NCBI GenBank assembly: GCA_012517355.1
Contig: JAAYVD010000123.1
Coordinates: 1 to 64,000, forward strand
Direction: 5' to 3'
DNA: 64,000 nt
Origin: Candidatus Rifleibacteriota bacterium
GTDB lineage: Bacteria > Muiribacteriota > Ozemobacteria > Ozemobacterales > Ozemobacteraceae
Position 1 is the first letter of the stretch, and each line of letters opens with the position of its first letter. Below, in pieces: positions 7,204 through 63,945 of this stretch. The notes under the pieces are model-generated. The model was not told the DNA's origin. It searched no databases and was given only the letters and a program-made list of their open reading frames with translations. Position numbers and translations under genes: made by a program.

Positions 7204-7283
7204 CCCGTTGGCGATGTGCGCTGCGGTTGTTTCACGCCCGTCCGTGGCGGCCAAGGGGAAGTTCCGACATCGTGCCGTTCGGG
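7204..7283 (-). repeat. Copy of the 78-bp hairpin repeat (intergenic)
   Basis: The reverse complement of this stretch aligns along its length with the copies at 59306-59388 and 28584-28666. Shared blocks are CACGATGTCGGAA (CACGACGTCGGAA elsewhere), GCCGCCACGG and GTGAAAC...GCGCACATCGCCAA. Several hairpin arms have decayed. The copy lies directly upstream of the extended -10 promoter at 7290. The rest of the divergent gap 7057-7420 holds only the two promoters. Confidence 0.7.
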
Positions 7284-8658: not shown

Positions 8659-9195
8659 TCAGTCCCGCTTCCAGCCCAGGGAATCCTGTTCCCGGTTCTC
8701 GGGCAGCATCGTCGGGTAGATGAACCGCCGGATGACGTGCTCCTCGGCCCCCGACGGGTGGCTCCGCACCCTGACCTCGAGGAAGAAGCCCCGCCGGGGT
8801 GGCGTGGCGGCCGGGGTCAGGGTGACTTCGACCTTCTGGTCGCGCGCATAGGGGTGGGCCTCTTCGCCGCCGGCCGCTGCCGCCGCAGGGATCCGCCGGA
8901 TGTATCCGATCTGGTCTTCCCCCGGCCGGTATCGGACCGGCATCGTCCCTGCCCCCGTGCGGACGGCCAGGTCGAGACCGCCGTCGGGGGTGATGGTGAC
9001 CGACTCGGCCTGCACCAGGTCCATCTCGAGGCGGGCCACCAGGATGGCCGCGGCCTGGACGTTGGTCAGGTGGCTGCTGCCCTTCTGGCTGACCCGGATG
9101 GTGCTGGTCAGCAGCCGGGTGAGGGCGACCGACAGGATGCCGCCCACCAGCACGGCGACCATGACCTCGATCAGGGTGACGGCGCGCCGGCTCAC
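8659..9195 (-). CDS. Prepilin-type pseudopilin (GspJ/PilW-like)
   Basis: A 178-residue protein with a type IV prepilin N-terminus: a short basic leader, then TLIEVMVAVLVGGILSVALT, with the conserved Glu five residues after the processing site, as recognised by prepilin peptidase. The rest is a small mainly beta globular domain. It is probably a minor pilin or pseudopilin. The start is GTG and overlaps the stop of the preceding gene (GTGA), implying translational coupling. It is the last gene of the minus-strand operon that starts at 17671. Assignment to GspJ/PilW rather than another minor pilin rests on size and gene order only. Confidence 0.8.
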   Translation of the reverse strand: MSRRAVTLIEVMVAVLVGGILSVALTRLLTSTIRVSQKGSSHLTNVQAAAILVARLEMDLVQAESVTITPDGGLDLAVRTGAGTMPVRYRPGEDQIGYIRRIPAAAAAGGEEAHPYARDQKVEVTLTPAATPPRRGFFLEVRVRSHPSGAEEHVIRRFIYPTMLPENREQDSLGWKRD

Positions 9196-9635
9196 CTGGG
9201 CCTCCCCCGGAACAACAGTCCGGTCTGGACGAAGACCTGGTCGAGGCCCGCGGTCGTCCAGGTCACCCGGGCCTGCAGGATGCGGTATTCGATCGGCCAG
9301 TCGGCGATGCCGCGGTCGGGGGTGCGCTCGACCACCGTCAACACCCGCCGGAAGCGGGGGTCGATGGGGGTGCCGCCGTCCACGGCGGGCAGGTCGCGTT
9401 CGGTGAAGCCGGCGGCGGTCATCGCGTCGAACCCCTTGGCGTAGCCCCAGTCGATCGCCTCGGTGGCATAGGCGTGGGCCAGGATCTCGTCCCGCGTCAG
9501 CGTGGTGCCCATGGTTCCCTGCGACAGCACGTGGAAGGCGGGCAGGATGCCGATGACCAGGACGAACAGGGCGATGAGCACCTCCACCAGGGAGATCCCG
9601 GCGGGACGGGGCGGTCGGCCAGTCGGTTGGTACAT
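9192..9635 (-). CDS. Prepilin-type pseudopilin (GspI/PilV-like)
   Basis: A 147-residue protein with leader MYQPTGRPPRPAG followed by ISLVEVLIALFVLVIGILPA, a class III prepilin processing motif with Glu at +5. The length and the LVEVLIALFVL signature resemble GspI/PilV minor pilins. It begins one base after the stop of the PilX-like gene and overlaps the next pilin gene by four bases, so the three are cotranscribed and coupled. Confidence 0.85.
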   Translation of the reverse strand: MYQPTGRPPRPAGISLVEVLIALFVLVIGILPAFHVLSQGTMGTTLTRDEILAHAYATEAIDWGYAKGFDAMTAAGFTERDLPAVDGGTPIDPRFRRVLTVVERTPDRGIADWPIEYRILQARVTWTTAGLDQVFVQTGLLFRGRPR

Positions 9636-9636
9636 A

Positions 9637-12210
9637 TCAATTTTCTTCGGTGGGTACTAATTCAAAGTTGAAGCTCAGGGCGGGCTGTTCGGAGGCCGCC
9701 TCGGCGGGGGCGGGCCGGCCCGGCAGCGCCGGCCGGGCGGCCAGGGGGGGGTAGTAGGTCAGCGCGGCCCCGGGGAAGGCGGCGAGGTCGGCCGGGGTGG
9801 CGGCCAGCGCCTTCATGGCCAGCGACCCGGCCAGGGCGGTGGCGCGGCCCCCCTCGAACCGGAGCCGGCCGTTGGCCACCAGGCCGGCCTGGATCTCGGT
9901 CCCGTCGGGGCCGGTCAGTCGGATGTCCCCGTGCAGGGCGGCCAGCTGCAGGATGGCGTGCGGCCGTTGCCCCGCCAGGGGGCGGATGGACGCCCCGATG
10001 ACCAGCTCGCCCTCCTCGAGGTGGATCCCCCCGTTGCCGAGGTAGGAGAGCGGCCGGTCGAGGACCAGGCGACCGGACGGCGACCGCACCAGGATCAGCC
10101 CGTCCAGGGACAGCACGCCGTTCCAGAGCAGGCCCCGCCGCTGCAGGGCGGTCCACAGGTCCACGTCCGGGCCGGCGGGGATGGTCAGCACGTAGGCATA
10201 CCGGCTCTGGTCGCGGATGGGGGCGAGGAAAGGGGCCATCTCGCGCAGCGAGGTCACCCCGGGCAGGCCCCGGAAGGCTTCGGGCACGGCATGCTTCTCC
10301 TCGTCGGTGGCGTCGCCCTTGCAGAACCGTATCAGAGGGTCCGAGTCGGGGAAGGCGGTCCAGGGGTCGGGCACCGTCCGGTTGTGGGCGAACGGCACTG
10401 CCAGGTTGACCTGGCGCGGCCCGATGAACGAGGAATGGCGCATGATGTATTCCCCCAGCGAGTCCGCGGTGCCGGAGATCAGCCCCGCCTCGCGCAGCAG
10501 GGCCAGCTTGCCGTTGGGGATGGTGCTTTCCATCTGGAATTTGAGCGGGTCCTCGTACAGGAACAGCCGTTCCCGGGCCCGGACCTGGTTCCAGGGCGGG
10601 CCCCGCAGCCGCTCGCTCTGGTACAGGCGCGCCATCAGCACGTGGGCGGCCACGTTGCCCAGCACCAGCGTCGGCGACCGGTTGGCATCGACCCCGTTGA
10701 GCCGGAAGACCGAACTCTCCTGCATGTGGTAGGAATCACGGAACAGCGGCCAGAAACGGGTCGAGGCCTCCTGCCGGATCAGGTCGTAGAACAGCCTGAC
10801 GTTGTCGTGGGAACTGGGGGAACAGCCGATCTCCATCTGGTAGAACCGCAGGTCGCCACCCCCCGGCAAGGGGGCGTATCCGCACCACCAGAACCCGTCC
10901 CCTCCCGATTTGCGGAACAGCTGGAAGCCTTCGCCGTGCGTGGCGTCGAGCCCGGTGGCCGGCGAGTAGGCGAGGTTCAGCCGCAGCTCCGTCGGTCCGC
11001 CCAGGTAGACCAGGCCCCGTGGGGCTTCCACGAACCGGTCCATCGTGGTCTCGACCGTCAGCGGGCCATTGGGCGACCCGGGACCGTCGTTGTCGAGGAT
11101 CAGCGGGGCGGCGGGGGAGTCGGGCATCAGGGCCCCGTTCTCGTCCACGCGCACCCGGTTGTACTCGTAGGTGGTCGTCGACTCGGGAAACCCCGCGTTT
11201 TCGACGTAGAGGGTGAACTTCGACAGGACCGGGGTCAGCGGGGCGACCACCTTGACCGGGCAGACATAGGAGAACTCCTCCGAGAGCGCCTGGCCCCCCG
11301 GCTTCTGCAGTTCGAGCCGGACGAGCAGCCGGATCCTCCCCTTCTTCTCGCGTCGGAACCCGGCCCCCGCCAGCCCGAACTCCTGGAAGTCCTCGGGCTG
11401 GCACCGGTAGCGGATGTGGAACACGAACTGCCCCATCCGCGCCAGCGGCCCGGTGATGTCCTGCGTGATCGTCTCGAGGTCGCTGGTCGGCACCTCGCCC
11501 AGGTCGACCTCCCCCTCGACGGGATCCATTTCGGCCCGTGGCCGCGCCAACTGCTGAAACAGCGGGAACAGGGACTCGGAATCGCTCTCCCGCTCGGGGA
11601 AGCTGCCCCCCGAATTCGCCGCCAGCAGCGGGCCGAACTGGATCTTGTGGACGGCCAGCGTGGCCAGCGACCGGGCCACCCGCGACAGCAGGTGCTGGCG
11701 GGTTCCCCGCGCCCGCAGCCGCCGTTGTGACTGCATGTAGTTCAGGTATCCCACCGCGTACAGGGCGATGCAGAACAGCAGTCCCAACGCCAGCAACAGA
11801 ATCGAGCCCCGCCGCCCCGCCCGGACGGCGGCCCCCTGGCCAGGCGAAAACCCGGCGCTTCGCGCCGTCACCCGCGGCGGCGTGGGGAAATTGCCGGCCT
11901 TGCAGGGGTCGGGGCGGTGTCTGGAGACCGCGCCAGCCGTCGCCGCAGGGGCGGGCATGCCCTGACCCCCGACCGCCGACAGACCGACTCCCAGTCCTCT
12001 CGCGCAACGGGAAATTCGCGCGGACCTCCGCGACGGCAGGAGGGGCCTGCCGGCGTCATGTCGGTCGGGGCGCGGCTTGGGCACCGCTCCTGCCGAGGCA
12101 GGAGCAGCATTACTGTCCCGACTTCCGATCGTCTGCCGGTCTGGACGTCGGCGGGGCAGGGGCTTGCCGGGGGAGTCGGGAGCCGGGTTCAGGGAGCCGG
12201 GTTCGGCCAT
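9637..12210 (-). CDS. Large PilX/GspK-like membrane-anchored protein with repeat-derived N-terminal extension
   Basis: An 857-residue protein. Its single hydrophobic segment (about 135-158, RRGSILLLALGLLFCIALYA) and the following YLNYMQSQRRLRARG helix resemble the N-terminus of PilX/GspK-type minor pilins. A large ectodomain (about 170-857) has no motif I recognise. Residues 1-134 are unlike any pilin leader: they are Arg/Pro-rich and made of about four units of 25-26 residues, encoded by the 78-bp repeats at 11839-12150. ATG 12210 has an excellent Shine-Dalgarno (GGGAGG, 5 bases away), so the extension appears to be translated; an internal ATG at 11958 lies inside the third unit and has a weak ribosome site. 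The start overlaps the preceding gene by 22 bases. With this extension, normal prepilin peptidase processing looks doubtful. Confidence 0.75.
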   Translation of the reverse strand: MAEPGSLNPAPDSPGKPLPRRRPDRQTIGSRDSNAAPASAGAVPKPRPDRHDAGRPLLPSRRSARISRCARGLGVGLSAVGGQGMPAPAATAGAVSRHRPDPCKAGNFPTPPRVTARSAGFSPGQGAAVRAGRRGSILLLALGLLFCIALYAVGYLNYMQSQRRLRARGTRQHLLSRVARSLATLAVHKIQFGPLLAANSGGSFPERESDSESLFPLFQQLARPRAEMDPVEGEVDLGEVPTSDLETITQDITGPLARMGQFVFHIRYRCQPEDFQEFGLAGAGFRREKKGRIRLLVRLELQKPGGQALSEEFSYVCPVKVVAPLTPVLSKFTLYVENAGFPESTTTYEYNRVRVDENGALMPDSPAAPLILDNDGPGSPNGPLTVETTMDRFVEAPRGLVYLGGPTELRLNLAYSPATGLDATHGEGFQLFRKSGGDGFWWCGYAPLPGGGDLRFYQMEIGCSPSSHDNVRLFYDLIRQEASTRFWPLFRDSYHMQESSVFRLNGVDANRSPTLVLGNVAAHVLMARLYQSERLRGPPWNQVRARERLFLYEDPLKFQMESTIPNGKLALLREAGLISGTADSLGEYIMRHSSFIGPRQVNLAVPFAHNRTVPDPWTAFPDSDPLIRFCKGDATDEEKHAVPEAFRGLPGVTSLREMAPFLAPIRDQSRYAYVLTIPAGPDVDLWTALQRRGLLWNGVLSLDGLILVRSPSGRLVLDRPLSYLGNGGIHLEEGELVIGASIRPLAGQRPHAILQLAALHGDIRLTGPDGTEIQAGLVANGRLRFEGGRATALAGSLAMKALAATPADLAAFPGAALTYYPPLAARPALPGRPAPAEAASEQPALSFNFELVPTEEN
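11839..12150 (-). repeat. Array of about four 78-bp hairpin repeats inside a pilin-like gene
   Basis: On the coding strand, units begin at about 12147, 12072, 11994 and 11916, which is a period of 75-78 bp or 25-26 codons. RPDR/RPDP recurs at residues 22, 47 and 99, with a decayed unit at about 73. The second unit is the best match to the copies at 28584 and 59306 (GACCGACATGACGCCGG, GCCG-CGCGGAGG, GCGCGAATTTCCCGTTGCGC). The first unit keeps GACCGGCAGACGATCGGAAG and then diverges into a palindrome (CTCCTGCCTCGGCAGGAG). All units keep the gene's frame. Confidence 0.75.
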
Positions 12211-12770
12211 TGCACCTCCCGCATGAACGACGCGACCACCTTGGGGTCGGCTTGGGGAAGATAGGGTTTCACCCTCTGCGGATCACGGTTGTCGAAGGGA
12301 TCGTGGGTCTCGCGCAGGGCCTTCAGAAGGACCGGTTCCCCCGAACCTCCGGTGGCGGGGTCGTCCTCCTTGAAGCGCAGATACGAGGCCCAGGCCCAGC
12401 CTCCGTCGGGGAACTTGCCGCAGGTGATCCGGGCGAAGAACCCCTGTACCTCGTGGATCATCACGGTGTCGCCATTGGCCACGAACCCGAGCTTCGGGGC
12501 CGACTGGCTGGGGGCGCTGAATACCAGCAGACAGCCGTTGAAGGGCGCTTCCAGGCTGACGCCTGCCACCTCGGCCTCGCGGGGAAGCCCGGTTTCCTCC
12601 GCCAGGACCACGGAACCGGCGGCGGCCACCATCGCGGCCAGGAGGAGGACCACGCCGGCGGAGGGCGCCAGTGCCCGCCTGGCCCGCCTGGCCTGTCCGG
12701 CCCTTCTGGCCCGTCTGGTCTGCCTGGCCGGGTTGGCCAACCATCGGGGGCGGTCGGTGATCTGGAACAT
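12189..12770 (-). CDS. Membrane-anchored or exported protein with SH3-like domain
   Basis: A 193-residue protein of unknown role. After an Arg-rich N-terminal stretch (residues about 17-38) a hydrophobic segment (about 40-58, GVVLLLAAMVAAAGSVVLA) acts as signal or anchor. Residues about 72-128 (LVFSAPSQSAPKLGFVANGD ... WAWASYLRF) have the pattern of a bacterial SH3 (SH3b) domain, often used to bind cell wall or protein partners. I chose ATG 12770 because GGAGG lies five bases upstream; the frame is open back to a TTG at 12794 without ribosome-site support. It lies 20 bases after the HEAT-repeat gene and overlaps the next gene, so it belongs to the pilin operon. Confidence 0.65.
   Translation of the reverse strand: MFQITDRPRWLANPARQTRRARRAGQARRARRALAPSAGVVLLLAAMVAAAGSVVLAEETGLPREAEVAGVSLEAPFNGCLLVFSAPSQSAPKLGFVANGDTVMIHEVQGFFARITCGKFPDGGWAWASYLRFKEDDPATGGSGEPVLLKALRETHDPFDNRDPQRVKPYLPQADPKVVASFMREVQWPNPAP
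12673..12735 (-). repeat. Seven 9-bp tandem units encoding an Arg-rich leader
   Basis: On the plus strand GCCCGCCTG is repeated with variation seven times (units at 12673, 12682, 12691, 12700, 12709, 12718 and 12727). In the minus-strand gene it encodes the run QTRRARRAGQARRARRA just before the hydrophobic signal/anchor segment. Confidence 0.75.
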
Positions 12771-12790
12771 GGGTGCCTCCTCTCTCGCTC

Positions 12791-15700
12791 TCAATACATC
12801 CGTACGAGCTCGACCTCGATCCGCTCGGGGGTCCGCTTCAGAACCCGGATCCTGGCCCGGAAGGGGCTGCCCTTCTGGAGCGGCTTGGTCGTGGTGGGGA
12901 AATGGACGAAGACCTCCTCGCCGATGCCGTCCAGCACGATGAGTGCCCCGTCGGCATAGGCGGCCTCGACGGCGCCTTGAATGTCACGGACCTGGTCAGG
13001 CTGCAGGGGGTGGGTGCGGTACGAGGCGCGCTGAGCCGGGGGGGGAGGCGGTTGGGCGGGGGCGCGGGCCGGGGCGCGGGAGGTTGGCTCTTCCCCCTCG
13101 CCGGGCAGCAGGACGGCGAACGCCACGAAGACCAGCAGGGCGATGGCCGGGCCGGCCACCCAGAGGGGGAGGCTCCGGACCGACGCCGCCAGACGTTCCA
13201 GCCCAGCCTGCCAGGCGGGGGCGGCCGCTGCTGCCGGCCTGCCGGGGCCGGGAGGCGGGGTTTGTCGCAGGTTCTGCCACGCATAGGCGGGCGGGTTCCG
13301 GCGCCGTTCCCGCGCCTGCTCGTCGCGCCGCCGGGCCTCGGCCAGAACCGCCTCGACCGACCCCCAGGTGGCTCCGGGGCCGGCCAGGATCCGGGCCGCC
13401 CCTTCCTGCAGGAGCGCGGGCCACCCCTCGCGGGCCGGCCCGGCCGCTGCCTCGGCCAGTCCAACCATCTGGCCCAGCAGATCGAGGTCGAGGTGTGGAA
13501 CCACCAAAATCCAGGCCTGCCTGGCCAGGTCGCGGTCCTGCTCCCGGCCCAACAGGGCCACCACCAGGTCGCGCACCGAGGGGAAATCAAACGCCCCGGC
13601 CGCGAACAGCCCCCGGGCCCGGTCTTCCGGCCGGGAGGCCCCCAGCATCTGCTCCACGTAGGTCAGGGCCTGCCTCTTGTCCTGGCGGACGAACGCCCTG
13701 ATCGCGGCTTCCCGCACCTCCAGGGCGTCGGTGCGCAGAAACCGCGGCAGGTGGGGGGCCAGGGACTCGAAGTCGAGGGCGGCCACCGCATCGATGGCGG
13801 CGGCCAGCACCATGGAGATCCCGTCGTCAGGGCGGGCCTCCCCGCCTGGCGGGCGCCCGGTCCCTTCCTTGAGGAACCGGCGGACGAGGGGAAGGTCCTC
13901 GCGCGTCCCGTGCAGCCCCAACAGGCGCAGCAGGGCGGCCCGGCAGGCCGGCGGGGTGTCGGGGGCCGCCACCAGGGCGACAGCTTCCGGCCGGTGGACC
14001 CGGAAGGTATCCGGCGTTCCGGAATGGACCCAGGCCGGGATGGTGGTCCGGACCGGCCCTGGACCAGCCTCGGCCGGCCTGGCAGGGGCCTGGGCGCCGG
14101 CCGCTTCCGCGGACGGCGTGGTCTCCGGTTCGGGGCCCGGTCTGGACCCATCGCGTTTCGGGGCCTCGCCCGCCGCCCCAGCCTGCGTGGCCCGCCCCGT
14201 CGGGGCCTGCCCTGGAGCGGTGGGGGTCTGGCCGGAAACGGGGGAGGAAGTGTCCGCGGAGGGGGTTCTCGGGACCCGCTCATCGGCGACCCCGGCCGCT
14301 TTCCCCGGCGGGTTGGGGCCTTCCCGCGCCGGCGACTTGGCCGTCGCTTGCCCGCCGTCTCCGGATGGGGTCGGAGCCGTCGGGGTTGCGGGTTCCGTTC
14401 CGGGCCGCTCCGCGGCCGTTCCCGCGCCGGCTTCGACCGGGGGCCCGCCAACAGGTTCGGCGGCGGGCTCGCCGGCTGGCTCGACGTTGGGTTCGATTCC
14501 AGGCCTGCCTGTCGGCCCGCCGGCGGGCGTGGCGGCAGGGCCGCCGGTGGCCGTCGCCCCCTTCGGCGCGTCGGGGGCCCCTTCGCCCGGCCCGGGGGGA
14601 AGGGGAATGACGGCCCCGAGGGCCTGCCTGACGCGCCCGTCCGATTCCCGGACGGCCAGTTCCTGCAGCAGGGCCAGGGCCTGGGGCCCGGCATGCGGCA
14701 ACAGGGCGGTCAGGTGTTCGACCGCCGCCCGCCGCTCTTCCGGTTCCGGGGAACCGAGGCCCACCCGGCACTGGTCCAGGATCCGCCCGATCCGGTCGGC
14801 CTTGTACGAGGCCAACAGGCCCGCCAGGAACTCTTTCGCCGGCCGGTCGATCAGCCCCGCCAGGCTCAGGTTTCCGATCACGTCGCCGAGGATCTCCTCG
14901 AGCAGGCGCCGTTTCTCGCCGCCGCAGGTTTCGCGGATCTCCAGCAGCCGCCGGGGCAGGTGCGGGGCGGGGTTGGCCCGGAACAGCATCCCGGCCCGCC
15001 GCACCAGCCGAGGATCGTCTTCCAGCCCGAGGAACCGCACCAACGCCTCCTCGATGGCCTCGAACGGCAGGAAGAAGGCGTGGTGCAGCGCGGCCGCCCG
15101 CTCCTCCCGCGTCGGACCGAACAGGTTCCCCTCGAGGTGGACCACCGCCTCGCGCTGGTCCCACTTGTACAGGAGGCGGATGCCGATGGTGCGCACCCCG
15201 TGGTTCGGGTGGCCCAGCACCTCGACCAGGCGTGGTTTCAGATCGTCGGGGTTCAGCCGCTCGAGGGCTTCCAGGGCGGCCATCGCCAGCCGGGGGTCGG
15301 GGTGGCGGCAGAAGGGTTCGAGGGCGGGGCCGTCCTGGGGCCCCCCCGCCCGCTTGAGGAACAGCATGACGAAGGGCAGCACCTCGGCCGGGAAGGTCCA
15401 CCATGAGCGGGCCCGCAGCATGAAAGCCGCTTCGCCTCCATCCCGGCGCGAGACCAGCTCCAGGGCGGTGGCCACCACGGTCCAGGTCGGAGGGGTGGCC
15501 GCCAGGCCCCGTTCGAGCAGGACCAGTGGCGGATCGGCGGGCGGGGTGCGGAGGGCCAGCCGGAGCTCGAGATGGAACCGGGTCAGCGCGTCGGTGGCCT
15601 GGCCGCGCAGGGCCTCCGCCGCCCGGACCTGGTCGGGCGTCCAGGTCTCGGGATGGGCCCGCAGGAGAGCCAGGAAGGAGGTGGCGGGGTCCGGGCTGGC

Positions 15701-17837: not shown

Positions 17838-18336
17838 TCCCCCTGAGCTCGCTGCCCGGCCGCCCAACGGCTGCCCGCTCTTGCTTTCTCCTTACCCTCT
17901 TTCCTTTCCCCTCCTGAGTCCCGCCGGTCCAACCGCTGCCCGCTCTTCCTTCCTCCTTGCCCTCTTCACTTTCCCCCTCCTGAGCCCCGCCGCCGAGCGC
18001 TCCTCTGCCTGTCCAACGGCTGCCGATCGCCCTTTCTCCCCCTTCTCCCTTTCCCCTTTTCCTCCTGCCTTCCCTGTTTCCCTCCCCTTCCCCTTTTCCT
18101 CCTTTCCTCCCATGTAGTTTCCCCTAACCTCCCCATTTCTCCTTCCTTGTTCCTCCGATCTTCTCCCTCACCCCTGCCTGCCACCACGCGCCAGCCAGTC
18201 CCTTCCGCCACCGCTCTCCCCTTCCCCCCCTTCTCCCTTTCCCCTATTCCTTCTTCCTTCCCTGTTTGCTTCACCTTCCCCTTGCCCTTTCCCTTCGTTA
18301 CTCCCATGTAGCTTCCCCTGTTCTCCCCATTTCCAC
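17838..18336. repeat. Pyrimidine-rich block with nested tandem repeats
   Basis: The plus strand is almost entirely C and T for about 500 bases in the gap 17672-18444. Three units of 66-71 bp share CTGAG-(C)CCGCCG...CAACGGCTGCCCGCTCTT...CTCCTTGCCCTCTT, with CTGAG at 17843, 17914 and 17980. A second, 105-110-bp direct repeat (18038-18142 and 18225-18334) is anchored by CCCATGTAGTTTCCCCT-like text. No credible gene lies in the block. Confidence 0.65.
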
Positions 18337-22136: not shown

Positions 22137-22203
22137 GAATTCCGGGGACACATGACTTAACTGCGCAAAAAGCGGGCAATTAAGTCATGTGTCCCCGGAA
22201 TTC
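22137..22203. repeat. Perfect 24-bp inverted repeat (GGGGACACATGACTTAA family)
   Basis: Arms 22137-22160 and 22180-22203 are exact reverse complements, separated by 19 bases. The arms contain CGGGGACACATGACTTAA, also found with variations in five places at 63.6-63.9 kb. The arm is followed by a run of GGAATTCC-type palindromes to about 22265. The motif resembles the text I associate with REP-type transposase neighbourhoods; no transposase gene is present here. Together these occupy the gap 22056-22327. Confidence 0.75.
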
Positions 22204-22327
22204 CCGGAATTCGGCGGAATCCGGAATTCCGGAATTCCGGAATTCGCGCGGAATTCGCGAAATTCGAAATCTCGCTCCGGGCGGTGGGCGCGGGACTTCC
22301 GGGATTCCCCATCCCTGGCAGGAAGGG

Positions 22328-24655: not shown

Positions 24656-24970
24656 CAGACCGGCACGATGCCGGCCATACCCCCTGATCATCTCCTTCCA
24701 TCGGCGTGGAGACCCTGGTTCTCGCCTTGCCAGGAGGCCGACCGGGACGAGGTTGGATGGGCTTCCCCCTTTGCGGCCAAAGGCGGCGCGCAACGCCCGT
24801 TTCGCTCCGCGCCAGGAGGCCCACCGACACGTTGCTGTCTTCAACCCTGGCGACCCAGGAGGGCGGGGCGATACGGACGGTTCGCGCCCGGCCAGACGGT
24901 CCTCTCCTCCGTGCCCTGGTTGTGGCCGGGAAACGGGCATCCCAGGCGGTTGCCCTTGGCCGTCCCACCC
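24656..24970 (+). repeat. Tandem array of diverged 78-bp hairpin repeats between divergent promoters
   Basis: Units start at about 24656, 24738 and 24812 (spacing 82 and 74), each beginning GACCGG-ACGA or CACCGACACG. The second unit is clearest: GGCGGCGCGCAACGCCCGTTTCGC matches the hairpin core of the copy at 28584-28666. The third keeps CCGACACG, GGCGGGGCGATACGGACGGTTCGCGC. A fourth, much decayed unit may extend to 24970. The array fills the space between the helicase promoter and the bamA promoter and includes no supported gene (gap 24554-25045). Confidence 0.6.
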
Positions 24971-28567: not shown

Positions 28568-29318
28568 ACGCCCTGCCCCGCCCCCGACCGACAGGAGGTC
28601 GGAAGTGCCCCCTTGCCGCCACGGAGGGCGGCGCGAAACCCCCGTTTCGCGCATCGCAAAGGGGCCGTCCCGCGCCCTGCTGCTCCTGGCCTTCGTCCTG
28701 GCCCTGGCCGCCGCCTTCTGCAGTGGCCCCGTCGCGGCCAGCCCCGAAGCGGACACCGGTTTCCGCCTGCGCTACATGGGGTCGGGCTGCCTGTCCATCC
28801 CCACCGGATACTGCCGTACCGAAGCGGCTTACATCAGCGACGACAGCCATTCCCTCACCCAGATCGCCCAGCAGGTGCTGGGGAAGTTCGCCGAACTGTC
28901 CATGGTCCGCCACCTCAACGGGACCCACAAGAACGAGAACGTCCTCAACCTGAAGGTCAATATCCTCGAGGAGGGTGACTACCTGCCGAACCTTGTCTGG
29001 GGGGTGTCCGACTTCCAGACCGAACTGGGCTCGAAGATCTTCTACGTCGCCGGCTCCAAGACCGTCGATGCCTTCGGGGTGACCATCCACGCCGGCATCT
29101 ACAAGGACCCGGTCACCACCGACAAAAAGGAATTCTTCGGTCTGGAAAAGACCATCCTGCCCCTGGTGGTGGCCGCCGGCGAACGGATCGACGGCAAGAC
29201 CACCGCCGGTCTGAAGATCCGGCCCTATCCTGGGGTCAGCGTCGAATACGCGCGCCGCCTCGATGCCAACGACGACCAGGCCAGCCTCTACCGGCTGGTC
29301 TATCTCCGCTCCTTCTGA
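28560..29318 (+). CDS. Exported protein of unknown function within the lpx cluster
   Basis: A 252-residue protein. Residues about 10-37 are encoded by a copy of the 78-bp hairpin repeat (PTDRRSEVPPCRHGGRRETP...), directly followed by a hydrophobic signal segment (about 41-58, ALLLLAFVLALAAAFCSG). The mature part (about 62-252) is predicted to be beta-rich with alternating polar and hydrophobic residues and ends in an aromatic residue (YLRSF), as outer-membrane barrels do; a small outer-membrane barrel is therefore possible. The ATG overlaps the lpxD stop by eight bases, so translation is coupled. Without the repeat the signal peptide would have a normal length. I do not recognise a family; its position suggests a role in envelope biogenesis. 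Confidence 0.7.
   Translation: MNRRPAPPPTDRRSEVPPCRHGGRRETPVSRIAKGPSRALLLLAFVLALAAAFCSGPVAASPEADTGFRLRYMGSGCLSIPTGYCRTEAAYISDDSHSLTQIAQQVLGKFAELSMVRHLNGTHKNENVLNLKVNILEEGDYLPNLVWGVSDFQTELGSKIFYVAGSKTVDAFGVTIHAGIYKDPVTTDKKEFFGLEKTILPLVVAAGERIDGKTTAGLKIRPYPGVSVEYARRLDANDDQASLYRLVYLRSF
28584..28666 (+). repeat. Well-preserved 78-bp hairpin repeat inside an exported-protein gene
   Basis: One copy in the same orientation as the gene. Hairpins: CCGAC...GTCGG, GCCGCC...GGCGGC, and the perfect GCGCGAAAC-CCCC-GTTTCGCGC. It begins 24 bases after the start codon and ends just before the signal-peptide core, and it is read without a stop. Confidence 0.85.
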
Positions 29319-57208: not shown

Positions 57209-58006
57209 TCAGGGTTCCTTTTCGGAACTGGTGAAGTGGATGGCCCCCTGTTCGATCCTGATCTCTTTGAGGTTCAAACGGAAGGGGAACTTCTTCAGAT
57301 TTAGGACGGGGTTGATCTTCTTGACGATCGTCCCGATGAAGGCGCGGGGCATGCTCAGGTTGTTCATCTTCATGTTGCGGGCATGGAACCAGATCTCCTG
57401 GCCGTCGTGGATCGAGAACCCGCCCGAGGCCCAGAACTTGACCTTGACGAATCCGTAGCGGGTGGAGCCCTGCAGTTCCATCTTGTCCGGTTGCAGGTCG
57501 ACGCGGGGGTTGTCGACCTTGATGCCCTTCGACTTGGCGACGAGGAAGGCGTTCAGGTCGGCTTCCAGGATGGTGACGTTCATGTCGATGTTCTTCACCT
57601 GGACCACGTCGATCTTCTCTTCCTTCACCAGCTTGGTGGTATCGAGCTGGACGTCGTGGAAGTCGATGTCGGCTCTCTCGAGCACCAGGTTGTCGACGTT
57701 GCCGCGCGCCTCGCGGACGCTGATCAGGTCGACGAACCCGCGGCTGCGGGCGACGGGATCGCGCGTGGTGACGGTGATGGTCAGGGTGGCGGGGTCTTTC
57801 AGGACCTTGCGCATGGCCAGGTCGAGCTGGCGCTCGAGAAGGCCGGGGTCGGAGGCGAGACGGGCGGTGATCTCGGGGTCTGGGGTCCAGCTGGCCACGG
57901 CCGGTCCGGAGGCGGCTTCGGCCCAGGCCAGGCGGGGGGCGGCGGCCAGGCAGAGGATGACGAGCAAGGCGAGGGGGAAGATGCTCATGGCGGTGGGGCG
58001 GCTCAT
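57209..58006 (-). CDS. Exported DUF2993-like (LmeA-type) lipid-binding protein
   Basis: A 265-residue protein with signal peptide 1-29 (AWAEA) and a mature domain of alternating amphipathic strands, with VDLISVREARGNVDNLVLER, ADIDFHDVQLDTTKL and PRAFIGTIVKKINPVLNLKK. This is the pattern of DUF2993/LmeA-type proteins, whose extended beta-sheet binds lipids. It would act in the periplasm, perhaps in lipid trafficking, which fits the nearby permease gene of LptF/G type. ATG 58006 has AAGGAGA upstream and overlaps the preceding stop by four bases (ATGA). Confidence 0.7.
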   Translation of the reverse strand: MSRPTAMSIFPLALLVILCLAAAPRLAWAEAASGPAVASWTPDPEITARLASDPGLLERQLDLAMRKVLKDPATLTITVTTRDPVARSRGFVDLISVREARGNVDNLVLERADIDFHDVQLDTTKLVKEEKIDVVQVKNIDMNVTILEADLNAFLVAKSKGIKVDNPRVDLQPDKMELQGSTRYGFVKVKFWASGGFSIHDGQEIWFHARNMKMNNLSMPRAFIGTIVKKINPVLNLKKFPFRLNLKEIRIEQGAIHFTSSEKEP

Positions 58007-59988
58007 CGCCGGTCTCCTTCCACGATGGGGGTGCCGTAACCGCCGTGGGGCACGCGCGGCAGCAGGTCGAGCCAGGCGTCCCAGAGGGTCAGGCCGCGCC
58101 GGCCGGAGGGGCGGGCGGCGCCCAGAAACGGCTGGACGACGGGGTCCAGATACAGGTTGGCATCCATCATGACCCGGTACTTCTTCGCATCCTCGATCGG
58201 CCGGTCCTGCACGGTCGCCGGGCGGGGCACCCCGCCCAGGAAACGGGCCCAACCGCCGGCCAGGCCGATCCTGAAGGGAAAGGTACCACGTCCGATGGCG
58301 AAAAACAACGTCTTCAACACCTTTCCCGACACCTGGTACTCGCGCAGATACCGGTTTTCGAAGCGGGGCAGCAGGACGGCCGGGGAAAGGGCGCGTTCGT
58401 CCCCGGGGGGCTCGTCGGCGACGGCCACCAGCCCCAGGTCGGAACGGCCGGCCGTCTTCGCCAGGCAGGCATGGAAGGTCGGGGACAATCGGTAGAGGCT
58501 GCGGGCGGCGAGGTCGCGGGTCGACAGGTAGTAACGGGGGGTCTGCCAGTCCTTCCGGAAGAGGGCGAGGTGCGGGGCCCCAAGGGCCTCGCCGGCAGCC
58601 TCGAGGCGGGCGCGGTCGAGGGGGAACCGGTGCCACCGCTCGGCGTCGGGGGCCCCTTCCCGGCTTTCGCGGCGGTACACCGAGACCTCGGTGCCGAACG
58701 GGGCGATCTCCCAGACCGTTGGTTCGGGCCGGGGTTCGGGGGGGGCGGCGAAGCAGTCGCGGCGGCGCGGCGGCGGCGGGGCGGGGGGATAGGCGGCTCC
58801 CAGGCCGAGACGGCGCGGGGAAGGCGGCTGTTCCTTGGCGGTGCGCGAAACATCCGTTTCACCCTGCCAACCGTCGCGGCGAAAGGGCTCTTCCGGAAAC
58901 GGGCCGGTCGGCCCCTTTGCGATGCGCGAAACGGGCGTTTCGCGTCGCCATTCGTGTCGGCCCAGGGGCCCTTCCGGCCTCGTGTCGGTCGGCTTCTCCG
59001 GCGTGGCCGCGGCCAAATCGGCGGGCGGCCCGACCAGCAGGAAGCGGGCGCGGGGGTCGGCTTCGGCGAGCAGTTCCCGCAGGTCGCCACCGTCGAGATG
59101 GCAGACCACCAGCAGCACATCGGCGCCGGCCAGGTCGGGCCGCAGGCGTCGCAGGCAGCGCGCGGGGTTTTCCGCGCCCTCGATGCCCCATTCCCGGGTC
59201 GGGAGGTCGGCCAAAAATGCAGTGCTGATCAGGCTCAGCACCGCGATCGAGCGTCCGCCCGCCGCTACCATTTGGAAGGGGGGGAACAGGCGGGATCCGG
59301 GGTCGGCCCCTTGGCGATGCGCGAAACTGGTGTCTCGCGCCGCCAGCCGTGGCGGCAATGGGGCCCTTCCGACGTCGTGTCGGTCGGGCTCGAAGGGCTG
59401 GTCCGTGGCGCCGGTGACGGGTAGCGGGTTCGACCACACGCGGTCGTGGATTGCCGGATCGAGTCTCTTCGCCTGGCGGAACCGGGCCAGGTCGGCGGGG
59501 CCGAGGCAGCGGACGGCCGGGCGGCAGGCGGCGGCGAGGGCCTCCTCGAGTTGCCCGTTCATCAGGACCGACGAGGGGGAGAGGATCGAGTAGTCGTTCC
59601 CGACGCCGATCACCAGTGTTTCCCAGGGGCGCTCGCGGCGCAGGGCGTCGAGCAGGGCCGGGATCTGCCACGGGGGCGCGGGAACGGGGTCGCCCTGCCG
59701 GTCGAACCCGACGAGGGCGCCCTGGAGGTTCCCGACCAGGGCGATCTGGAGCGGAGCGCTCGCCCCCCGGGCCGGTTCCGGCCAGCCCAAGGTGGCGGCC
59801 AGGAGCAGGAGAACGCCGACGAAGGCGGTCCGGCAGCGGGGCAGGAGGGTGGCCGGGCCGGTCGGGTGGATGGTGGGTGCCTCAGAAGCCCGACCGGCGG
59901 TGGGGCGGTGGTGGGCGGCAAAGGTGGCGGTCGTCCGGGAAGACGGAGGAGGGGGCGGGACGGCGGGCCGGAGACGGCGCTCAGGCAT
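58003..59988 (-). CDS. Degenerate 5'-nucleotidase (UshA)-like protein with in-frame repeat insertions
   Basis: A 661-residue protein. A hydrophobic signal segment (about 54-72, [20 protein letters not shown]) comes after a 50-residue Pro/Arg-rich extension. Parts after it follow the metallophosphatase/5'-nucleotidase plan: [17 protein letters not shown] at the usual 'NDxHG' site, [14 protein letters not shown] at the 'GD' site, and a C-terminal part (about 540-640; [20 protein letters not shown]) like a 5'-nucleotidase C-terminal domain. Key metal ligands seem to be missing, so catalysis is doubtful. Residues about 201-228 and 333-386 are encoded by copies of the 78-bp repeat, read in two different frames. 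The start overlaps the permease stop by eight bases. Family assignment is tentative. Confidence 0.55.
58832..58992 (-). repeat. Two tandem 78-bp hairpin repeats inside a gene
   Basis: Copies 58832-58911 and 58912-58992, head to tail. Each has the GCGCGAAAC...GTTTCGC hairpin (with changes) and the GTGTCGG or CCGGTCGG end. On the minus strand they encode [13 protein letters not shown] and [13 protein letters not shown], 27 residues apart. Confidence 0.85.
59306..59388 (-). repeat. Single 78-bp hairpin repeat inside a gene
   Basis: Contains GCCGCCAGCCGTGGCGGC (7-bp stem), GCGCGAAAC-TGGT-GTCTCGCGC and CCGAC...GTCGG. It has the same orientation as the pair at 58832 but is read in a different frame ([20 protein letters not shown]). 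Confidence 0.85.
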
Positions 59989-63575: not shown

Positions 63576-63945
63576 GGAGACACATGACTTCATCCCGAGG
63601 ACGGTGAATTCCGGGGAGTTCCGGGGAGTTTCGGGGACACATGACCAAATTCCGGAAACCTTGATGGAATTTCGGGAGTTTTGGGGACACATGACCAAAT
63701 TCTGGAAACCCTCATGGAATGTTGCGGGGGGGAGGGAATTTTGCACGTAGGTCTCCAACGGGACGGGGTTCAGGTTCTGCGAACGAGCGAAAACGGTTCC
63801 ACTTTGGGAAGGCGTTTTCCAGATGAGGGAAGGGTCCACCGAGGCGACCGGTTCGGGGCATTGGGAGATTAAGTCATGTGTCCCCGAAATTCCGCTGAGC
63901 TGTTTGGGGCAATGGGAGAATCAAGTCATGTGTCCCCGAAATTCC
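63576..63945. repeat. Element bounded by inverted copies of GGGGACACATGAC
   Basis: The left half has the motif in one orientation at 63576, 63632 and 63682 (the last two lie in a 50-bp direct repeat with CCAAATTC-GGAAACC). The right half has it inverted at about 63871 and 63922, in a 51-bp direct repeat (GGGGCA-TGGGAGA-T-AAGTCATGTGTCCCCGAAATTCC). About 150 bases in the middle are unrelated and hold no gene. The motif matches the arms of the inverted repeat at 22137. It fills the gap 63475-63969. Confidence 0.7.

Follow-up and report, generated by a model that had tools for sequence, protein, structure and literature searches.

Short palindromic elements that insert in frame into protein-coding genes have been described in Rickettsia and Wolbachia and, with lower frequency, among other bacterial MITEs (PMC10969869, PMC2229807, PMC4224334, PMC5656822). 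The Rickettsia and Wolbachia elements (RPE and WPE) are presented as short dispersed palindromes that lie both between genes and in frame within conserved proteins (PMC10969869, PMC2229807, PMC4224334). Also comparable are coding MITEs such as the 107-bp Correia element, ERIC and the Yersinia 168-bp repeat, small non-autonomous repeats whose frames are fused to host genes (PMC2229807); PARCELs, described as coding repeats of ~25 residues with dyad symmetry and tandem arrays (PMC2996958); and REP/BIME sequences with RAYT, which are palindromic, dispersed and of high copy number, the REPs being 20–40 bp long and extragenic in one account (PMC3733652). Prepilin leaders are variable in length, some being called very long, and are described as cytoplasmic, in line with the positive-inside rule, and as cut on the cytoplasmic side (PMC10191384). 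Leader length varies in type IVb prepilins and in the long-leader prepilins of Streptococcus sanguinis (same source), as it does here. Our literature search, which covered subscription journals thinly, found no prepilin leader made of mobile repeats or 135 residues long, no palindromic elements in riflebacteria and no palindromic in-frame insertions in prepilins.

The Ozemobacteraceae are members of the Riflebacteria. In a 64,000-nt stretch of DNA from this family (hereafter the window), we find an 81-nt element that appears to behave like the Rickettsia palindromic elements in another phylum, a likeness of properties: it has many dispersed copies, both intergenic and intragenic, near-consensus copies have a palindromic fold, and copies lie in frame in protein genes. 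It differs from RPE and WPE in its length (81 nt against ~105–150 nt), in its host (Candidatus Ozemobacteraceae, not Rickettsiales), in its far higher copy number, and in its tandem arrays, its use of several frames and both orientations and its frequency in prepilin leaders. As to coding MITEs, we identified no unit-spanning terminal inverted repeats, no target-site duplication and no transposase linked to the element. PARCELs are, by description, amphipathic repeat domains, whereas the peptide encoded here is hydrophilic or basic, flexible in frame, and found in unrelated enzymes and leaders. As to REP/BIME systems, the sole Y1_Tnp gene of this genome has no element copy nearby.

The gene that drew attention to the element lies on the minus strand at positions 9637–12210 and encodes a GspK/PilX-type prepilin-like protein of 857 aa. 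The ORF is uninterrupted across the repeat array and continues to RRGSILLLALGLLF, and the whole repeat stretch is thus in frame with the hydrophobic helix, as the initial annotation had stated. The layout of a class III signal peptide is present, with a hydrophilic leader, a terminal Gly and then a hydrophobic run (RRG/SILLLALGLLFCIALYAVGYL; motif RRG/SILLLALGLLF, the slash marking the predicted cleavage site), and relatives' pilins have a similar cleavage motif. Computed from the coordinates, the Gly is residue 135, and the leader therefore comprises residues 1–135 rather than the 134 first given. Position +5 has no Glu, neither PF07963 nor TIGR02532 matched the 857-aa protein, and Pfam and NCBIfam searches with it were otherwise blank too; we term it GspK/PilX-like from its position and helix, as a candidate and not a proven pilin. 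Its two downstream neighbours are prepilin-like by Pfam/NCBIfam matches: the next gene (9192–9635, minus strand) is N_methyl/PilV-like and resembles a minor pilin, both matches being under the curated cut-off, and it overlaps by 4 nt the following gene (8659–9195, minus strand), which encodes an N_methyl prepilin-type protein. There are two Peptidase_A24 (prepilin peptidase family) genes in the genome. A paralogue in the same genome (L043) has 52% identity over an alignment that covers residues 5–739 of a 743-aa query, and by this alignment there is no frameshift between array and helix. Orthologues gave weaker alignments than the paralogue, with matches in 22 of 56 genomes searched, own genome included; a search for related loci returned no orthologue of the gene.

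The leader had been described as four repeat units, but a covariance model divides the array instead into two strong copies of the element and two spacers, all read on the minus strand. Spacer segment 1 (12069–12146), which has a hairpin CTCCTGCC/GGCAGGAG, is followed by element copy 1 (11988–12068; 81 nt, 69.4 bits), reading PDRHDAGRPLLPSRRSARISRCARG.., then by spacer segment 2 (11913–11987; 75 nt) and by element copy 2 (11832–11912; 81 nt, 67.6 bits), the end of which lies ~8 codons ahead of the cleavage site. Parts of spacers 1 and 2 score 3.5 and 7.9 bits, respectively, with the model. The likeness between the two spacers (z 4.5) was matched by none of 300 shuffles, that between spacer 1 and the element is weak (z 3.5, reached by 2 of 300), and 29 of 300 shuffles scored as high as spacer 2 against the element; spacer 2 is kin to spacer 1 and not clearly to the element. 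The array thus consists of two composites of spacer and unit with a period of ~156 nt. A second palindromic repeat, with the core GGAGCGGTCTCCAGACCGCGA, forms a short tandem array elsewhere in the genome (L154, contig C127:105571–109654). We rejected a second palindrome as the source of the spacers, since its core was matched just 4 times in 910 kb of pieces.

Aligning 35 copies gave an 81-nt consensus that starts with CCGACCGACACGA. A BLAST search of the genome with the array DNA returned 41 matches on many contigs, and the covariance model (R1) matched all 150 scored candidates; given that RNAalifold found hardly any structure in the mixed set of copies, this model is nearly a sequence profile. 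We counted 245 units across 521 kb. The density in the window (10 strong copies) and in control loci suggests roughly 600–1,100 copies genome-wide (631–714 from the window and control loci, ~1,100 from the window alone). Within the window, three tandem copies (24656–24899, plus strand) and a single copy (7204–7282, minus strand) lie outside the genes of our coding model. Other repeats in the window are a 65-nt tandem duplication (17864–17992) and a CCCGGAATT array (22194–22265). Length differences are multiples of 3 in 187 of 203 near-full copies; we do not take this as proof of coding constraint, since many +3 copies seem to form a single subfamily that has an insert in common. Nor is a RAYT supported as the mobiliser, the only Y1_Tnp gene of the genome lying in a 3.3-kb locus free of the element unit. 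That RAYT-like gene (L191, contig C109:4387–4713) is flanked by a different repeat, around GGAGTTCCGGGGACATGATACCGAA, and a 50-nt repeat similar to the flanking one occurs near the end of the window (63624–63720).

The consensus fold comprises a head hairpin and a stem around two hairpins. Both near-consensus copies that we examined fold strongly as single-stranded DNA (z −5.4 and −4.0), as might be expected if the array were a regulatory RNA or DNA structure, with hairpins controlling the pilin operon, instead of a coding insertion. However, the array's own two copies show no folding beyond that of shuffled sequences (z −1.1 and −0.04), no Rfam family was found in the window, and element copies also lie in frame within unrelated coding sequences. 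Covariation is at the shuffle level, and we rejected conserved RNA structure on that ground. We consider a regulatory role of this kind highly improbable. The units of the array have decayed and lost their palindromic fold, and part of the array could therefore be an untranslated relic.

Among 36 genomes, the 81-nt model was positive in two, the genome itself and G002, a member of the same genus, with 3 copies. A pattern search of named genomes found six contigs of the Candidatus Ozemobacteraceae MAG CALLCO and a single contig from Clostridia, in which little matched beyond the search pattern itself. CALLCO and G002 have a copy at an identical contig number and coordinate, and the two records are probably the same genome. 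CALLCO chiefly carries a shorter, 60-nt sister unit that shares the head hairpin. At two CALLCO loci (L194:7669–7977 and L198:25–131), 60-nt units were seen, two of them in tandem at 60-nt spacing and one in frame in an ORF that, by eye and from its motif, looks like a nucleotidyltransferase.

The relation of the element to genes was assessed at loci picked for high-scoring copies (except the window and L043), using a coding model trained on repeat-masked fetched DNA, with the frame inferred independently on either side of each block. Enough flank was available for 164 of 171 blocks, of which 89 were intergenic, 29 at a 5′ edge, 16 at a 3′ edge, 29 internal and in phase, and one out of phase. 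Phase was thus kept in 29 of the 30 blocks with same-strand coding on both flanks (binomial P 3e-13, chance being one third), and none of the 29 in-phase internal blocks has a stop in the frame of its gene. Pfam families with internal copies include Epimerase, PPDK_N, YdjC, ATP-grasp, AAA, SUI1, GlcNAc_2-epim and ankyrin; Pfam was blank for two of the ten proteins of the internal-copy set. The YdjC protein has a Pfam match at 68–318 that runs across the insert at 151–177, and an RNA pseudouridine synthase has a unit between its S4 and catalytic domains. MutY, whose block was classed as 5′ edge, has two units, one N-terminal and one between LPWR and DPYAILVSEIMLQQTQ, and the latter is absent in the three nearest orthologues (G001, G002 and G004). 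In the window, a minus-strand gene at 58003–59988 carries two copies in frame at 58831–58992 and a third at 59307–59387; its 661-aa product was blank in Pfam and NCBIfam searches. A near-consensus copy on the plus strand (28584–28664) is at the N-terminus of a signal-peptide-like ORF, between an ATG at ~28560, which overlaps the end of the preceding gene, and a signal-peptide-like hydrophobic stretch. Judged from these flanking frames, in-frame insertion is a general habit of the element in this genome, in several frames and in both orientations.

The gene upstream of the prepilin-like gene (12189–12794, minus strand) encodes a bacterial SH3 domain, and its 3′ end overlaps the ATG of the prepilin-like gene by 22 nt. 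This gene has a coding repeat of its own, Arg-rich and 9 nt long (12673–12729), ahead of a hydrophobic segment. L043 (42% identity) and five relatives likewise have this SH3-domain gene ahead of the pilin, with matches at E ≤ 1e-12 in 6 of the 19 upstream loci that were searched. The initial annotation had proposed a comparison with close relatives lacking the array, and that comparison supports an insertion: the distance from the SH3 stop to the cleavage motif is 13–32 nt in five relatives, where the site is empty, 301 nt in the unit-bearing L043, and 376 nt here, the 376-nt gap holding the insert. In four of the five relatives the stop reads TTGA, and at least some of these pilins could be initiated at an in-frame TTG. 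Given these short distances and the TTGA stops, a pilin start that overlaps or touches the SH3 stop is probably ancestral, an arrangement that ATG 12210 would preserve. That ATG (12208–12210, minus strand), the likeliest start codon, is preceded by GGGAGGTGCA, with a GGAGG core 4 nt upstream; the Shine-Dalgarno first called excellent is present in its core, but its spacing is short. We think it most likely that translation starts at ATG 12210 and that the long basic leader is cytoplasmic and is removed by prepilin peptidase.

Other prepilin genes bear on this reading. We surveyed the DNA upstream of all 107 PF07963 (N_methyl) matches of the genome and found a unit within 120 nt 5′ of the motif in 10, with a weak partial unit in an eleventh (C134:25152, E 0.0085). 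Two of these 11 genes are on contig C34 and the others each on a different contig; the unit ends within 40 nt of the motif in nine of the strong cases and in the weak one, and several leaders hold arrays of more than one unit. In 10 of the 11, the closest ATG upstream shares the frame of the gene (P 1.3e-4), and the remaining gene, on C98, has an in-frame GTG with GGAGG. No in-frame ATG, GTG or TTG lies between unit and motif in the genes on C69 and C98 or in the weak C134:25152, indicating that their units are translated if the genes are expressed. The paralogue L043 likewise has roughly 70 codons before its helix that include no ATG, GTG or TTG. Six further GspK-like paralogues of the genome have leaders free of the unit, in part short ones.

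Alternatively, translation of the 857-aa gene might begin within the array, at a GTG in element copy 2 (11869–11871, minus strand) or at ATG 11958, in which case the array would be 5′ untranslated and its openness a high-GC accident. The GTG would give a 22-aa leader, close in length to the leaders of C10, C134a and other paralogues free of the unit, and the units of other prepilins likewise contain in-frame GTG, ATG or TTG codons. Moreover, stop-free frames are cheap: 40% of the sequences obtained by dinucleotide shuffling of the unit consensus are open in all six frames, so that an open frame through the array says little by itself, and we rejected the idea that six-frame openness is an adaptation peculiar to the element. 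On the other hand, the GTG has no Shine-Dalgarno and ATG 11958 has only GGGG 7–8 nt before it, initiation at 11871 would put >300 nt between the SH3 stop and the pilin start in a cluster where adjacent genes otherwise overlap or almost abut, and the genes on C69 and C98, the weak C134:25152 and L043 have no comparable internal start. We regard initiation within the array as unlikely. The initial annotation had weighed a leader that is made and tolerated against an internal start, and had named a start codon just before residue 130, or a frameshift, as what would refute the long leader. The first reading is the better supported, favoured by the empty site, the in-frame ATGs of other prepilin genes and L043, but GTG 11871 (residue 114) comes near to being such a start codon.

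The element also seems to prefer prepilin leaders, and this is the new part of the finding. Among 56 control starts (epimerase and response-regulator domains, a small set in which some response-regulator domains are internal and so have coding sequence upstream), none had an abutting unit, compared with 10 of 107 prepilins (one-sided P 0.013), and a unit overlapped the 110 nt upstream in 1 of the 56 compared with 11 of 107 (P 0.04). Against the unit density of the window, the excess at prepilins has a Poisson P of 4e-6. When 5′-edge genes were drawn regardless of function, 5 of 25 were prepilin-like by eye, compared with ~2% expected (P 1e-4), a count that omits the 857-aa gene and L043, which were not blind draws, and a stop-containing block. 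We dropped the idea that the element broadly favours genes whose products have hydrophobic N-termini (14 of 28 against 109 of 258, P 0.28).

Strongly basic frames of the unit were found in 12 of 15 leaders and in 8 of 29 internal insertions (P 0.0014); the 15 leaders are the ten N_methyl prepilins, the weak one, the 857-aa gene, L043 and genes of L003 and L014, and their frames were assigned by eye and the test computed. This excess fits translation and the expected membrane topology, and is not proof of either. It would also be expected, as would the multi-unit arrays, if the long leader had been co-opted, such that the repeat-encoded basic peptide functions before or after cleavage. But the element is present in only about a tenth of the prepilins, the differing frames and orientations point to tolerance, and membrane topology alone accounts for the positive charge. 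We consider co-option improbable, and favour tolerance.

Our overall account, which we hold to be quite probable, is that a dispersed 81-nt palindromic element was inserted in frame into a short GspK/PilX-like leader. The 376-nt stretch from stop to motif would have arisen by insertion of the element, giving two recognisable copies and related spacers. Initiation would stay at ATG 12210, overlapping the end of the SH3 gene; the basic leader of 135 residues would remain cytoplasmic while the hydrophobic helix enters the membrane according to the positive-inside rule; and prepilin peptidase would cleave after Gly135, leaving the mature protein unaltered. A leader of this length is less paradoxical if one considers that the leaders of prepilins stay in the cytoplasm and are removed, and such leaders would be a favoured landing place because material inserted there is discarded. 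Whether they are a preferred safe harbour, in which insertions are cheap, tolerance causes the enrichment and selection retains the frames that add positive charge, is to our mind evenly balanced.

If this last proposal is true, about a tenth of the prepilins of the genome have leaders built from the element, and prepilin peptidase accepts leaders of >100 residues. The repeated insertions would allow tests of how much extra length class III signal peptides tolerate, and gene callers may misplace starts in genomes with such elements. In-frame palindromes in protein genes had been described as peculiar to Rickettsia and its relatives. Their apparent counterpart in another phylum, with several hundred copies in several frames and on both strands, would provide a much larger natural experiment on the insertion of peptides into working proteins.
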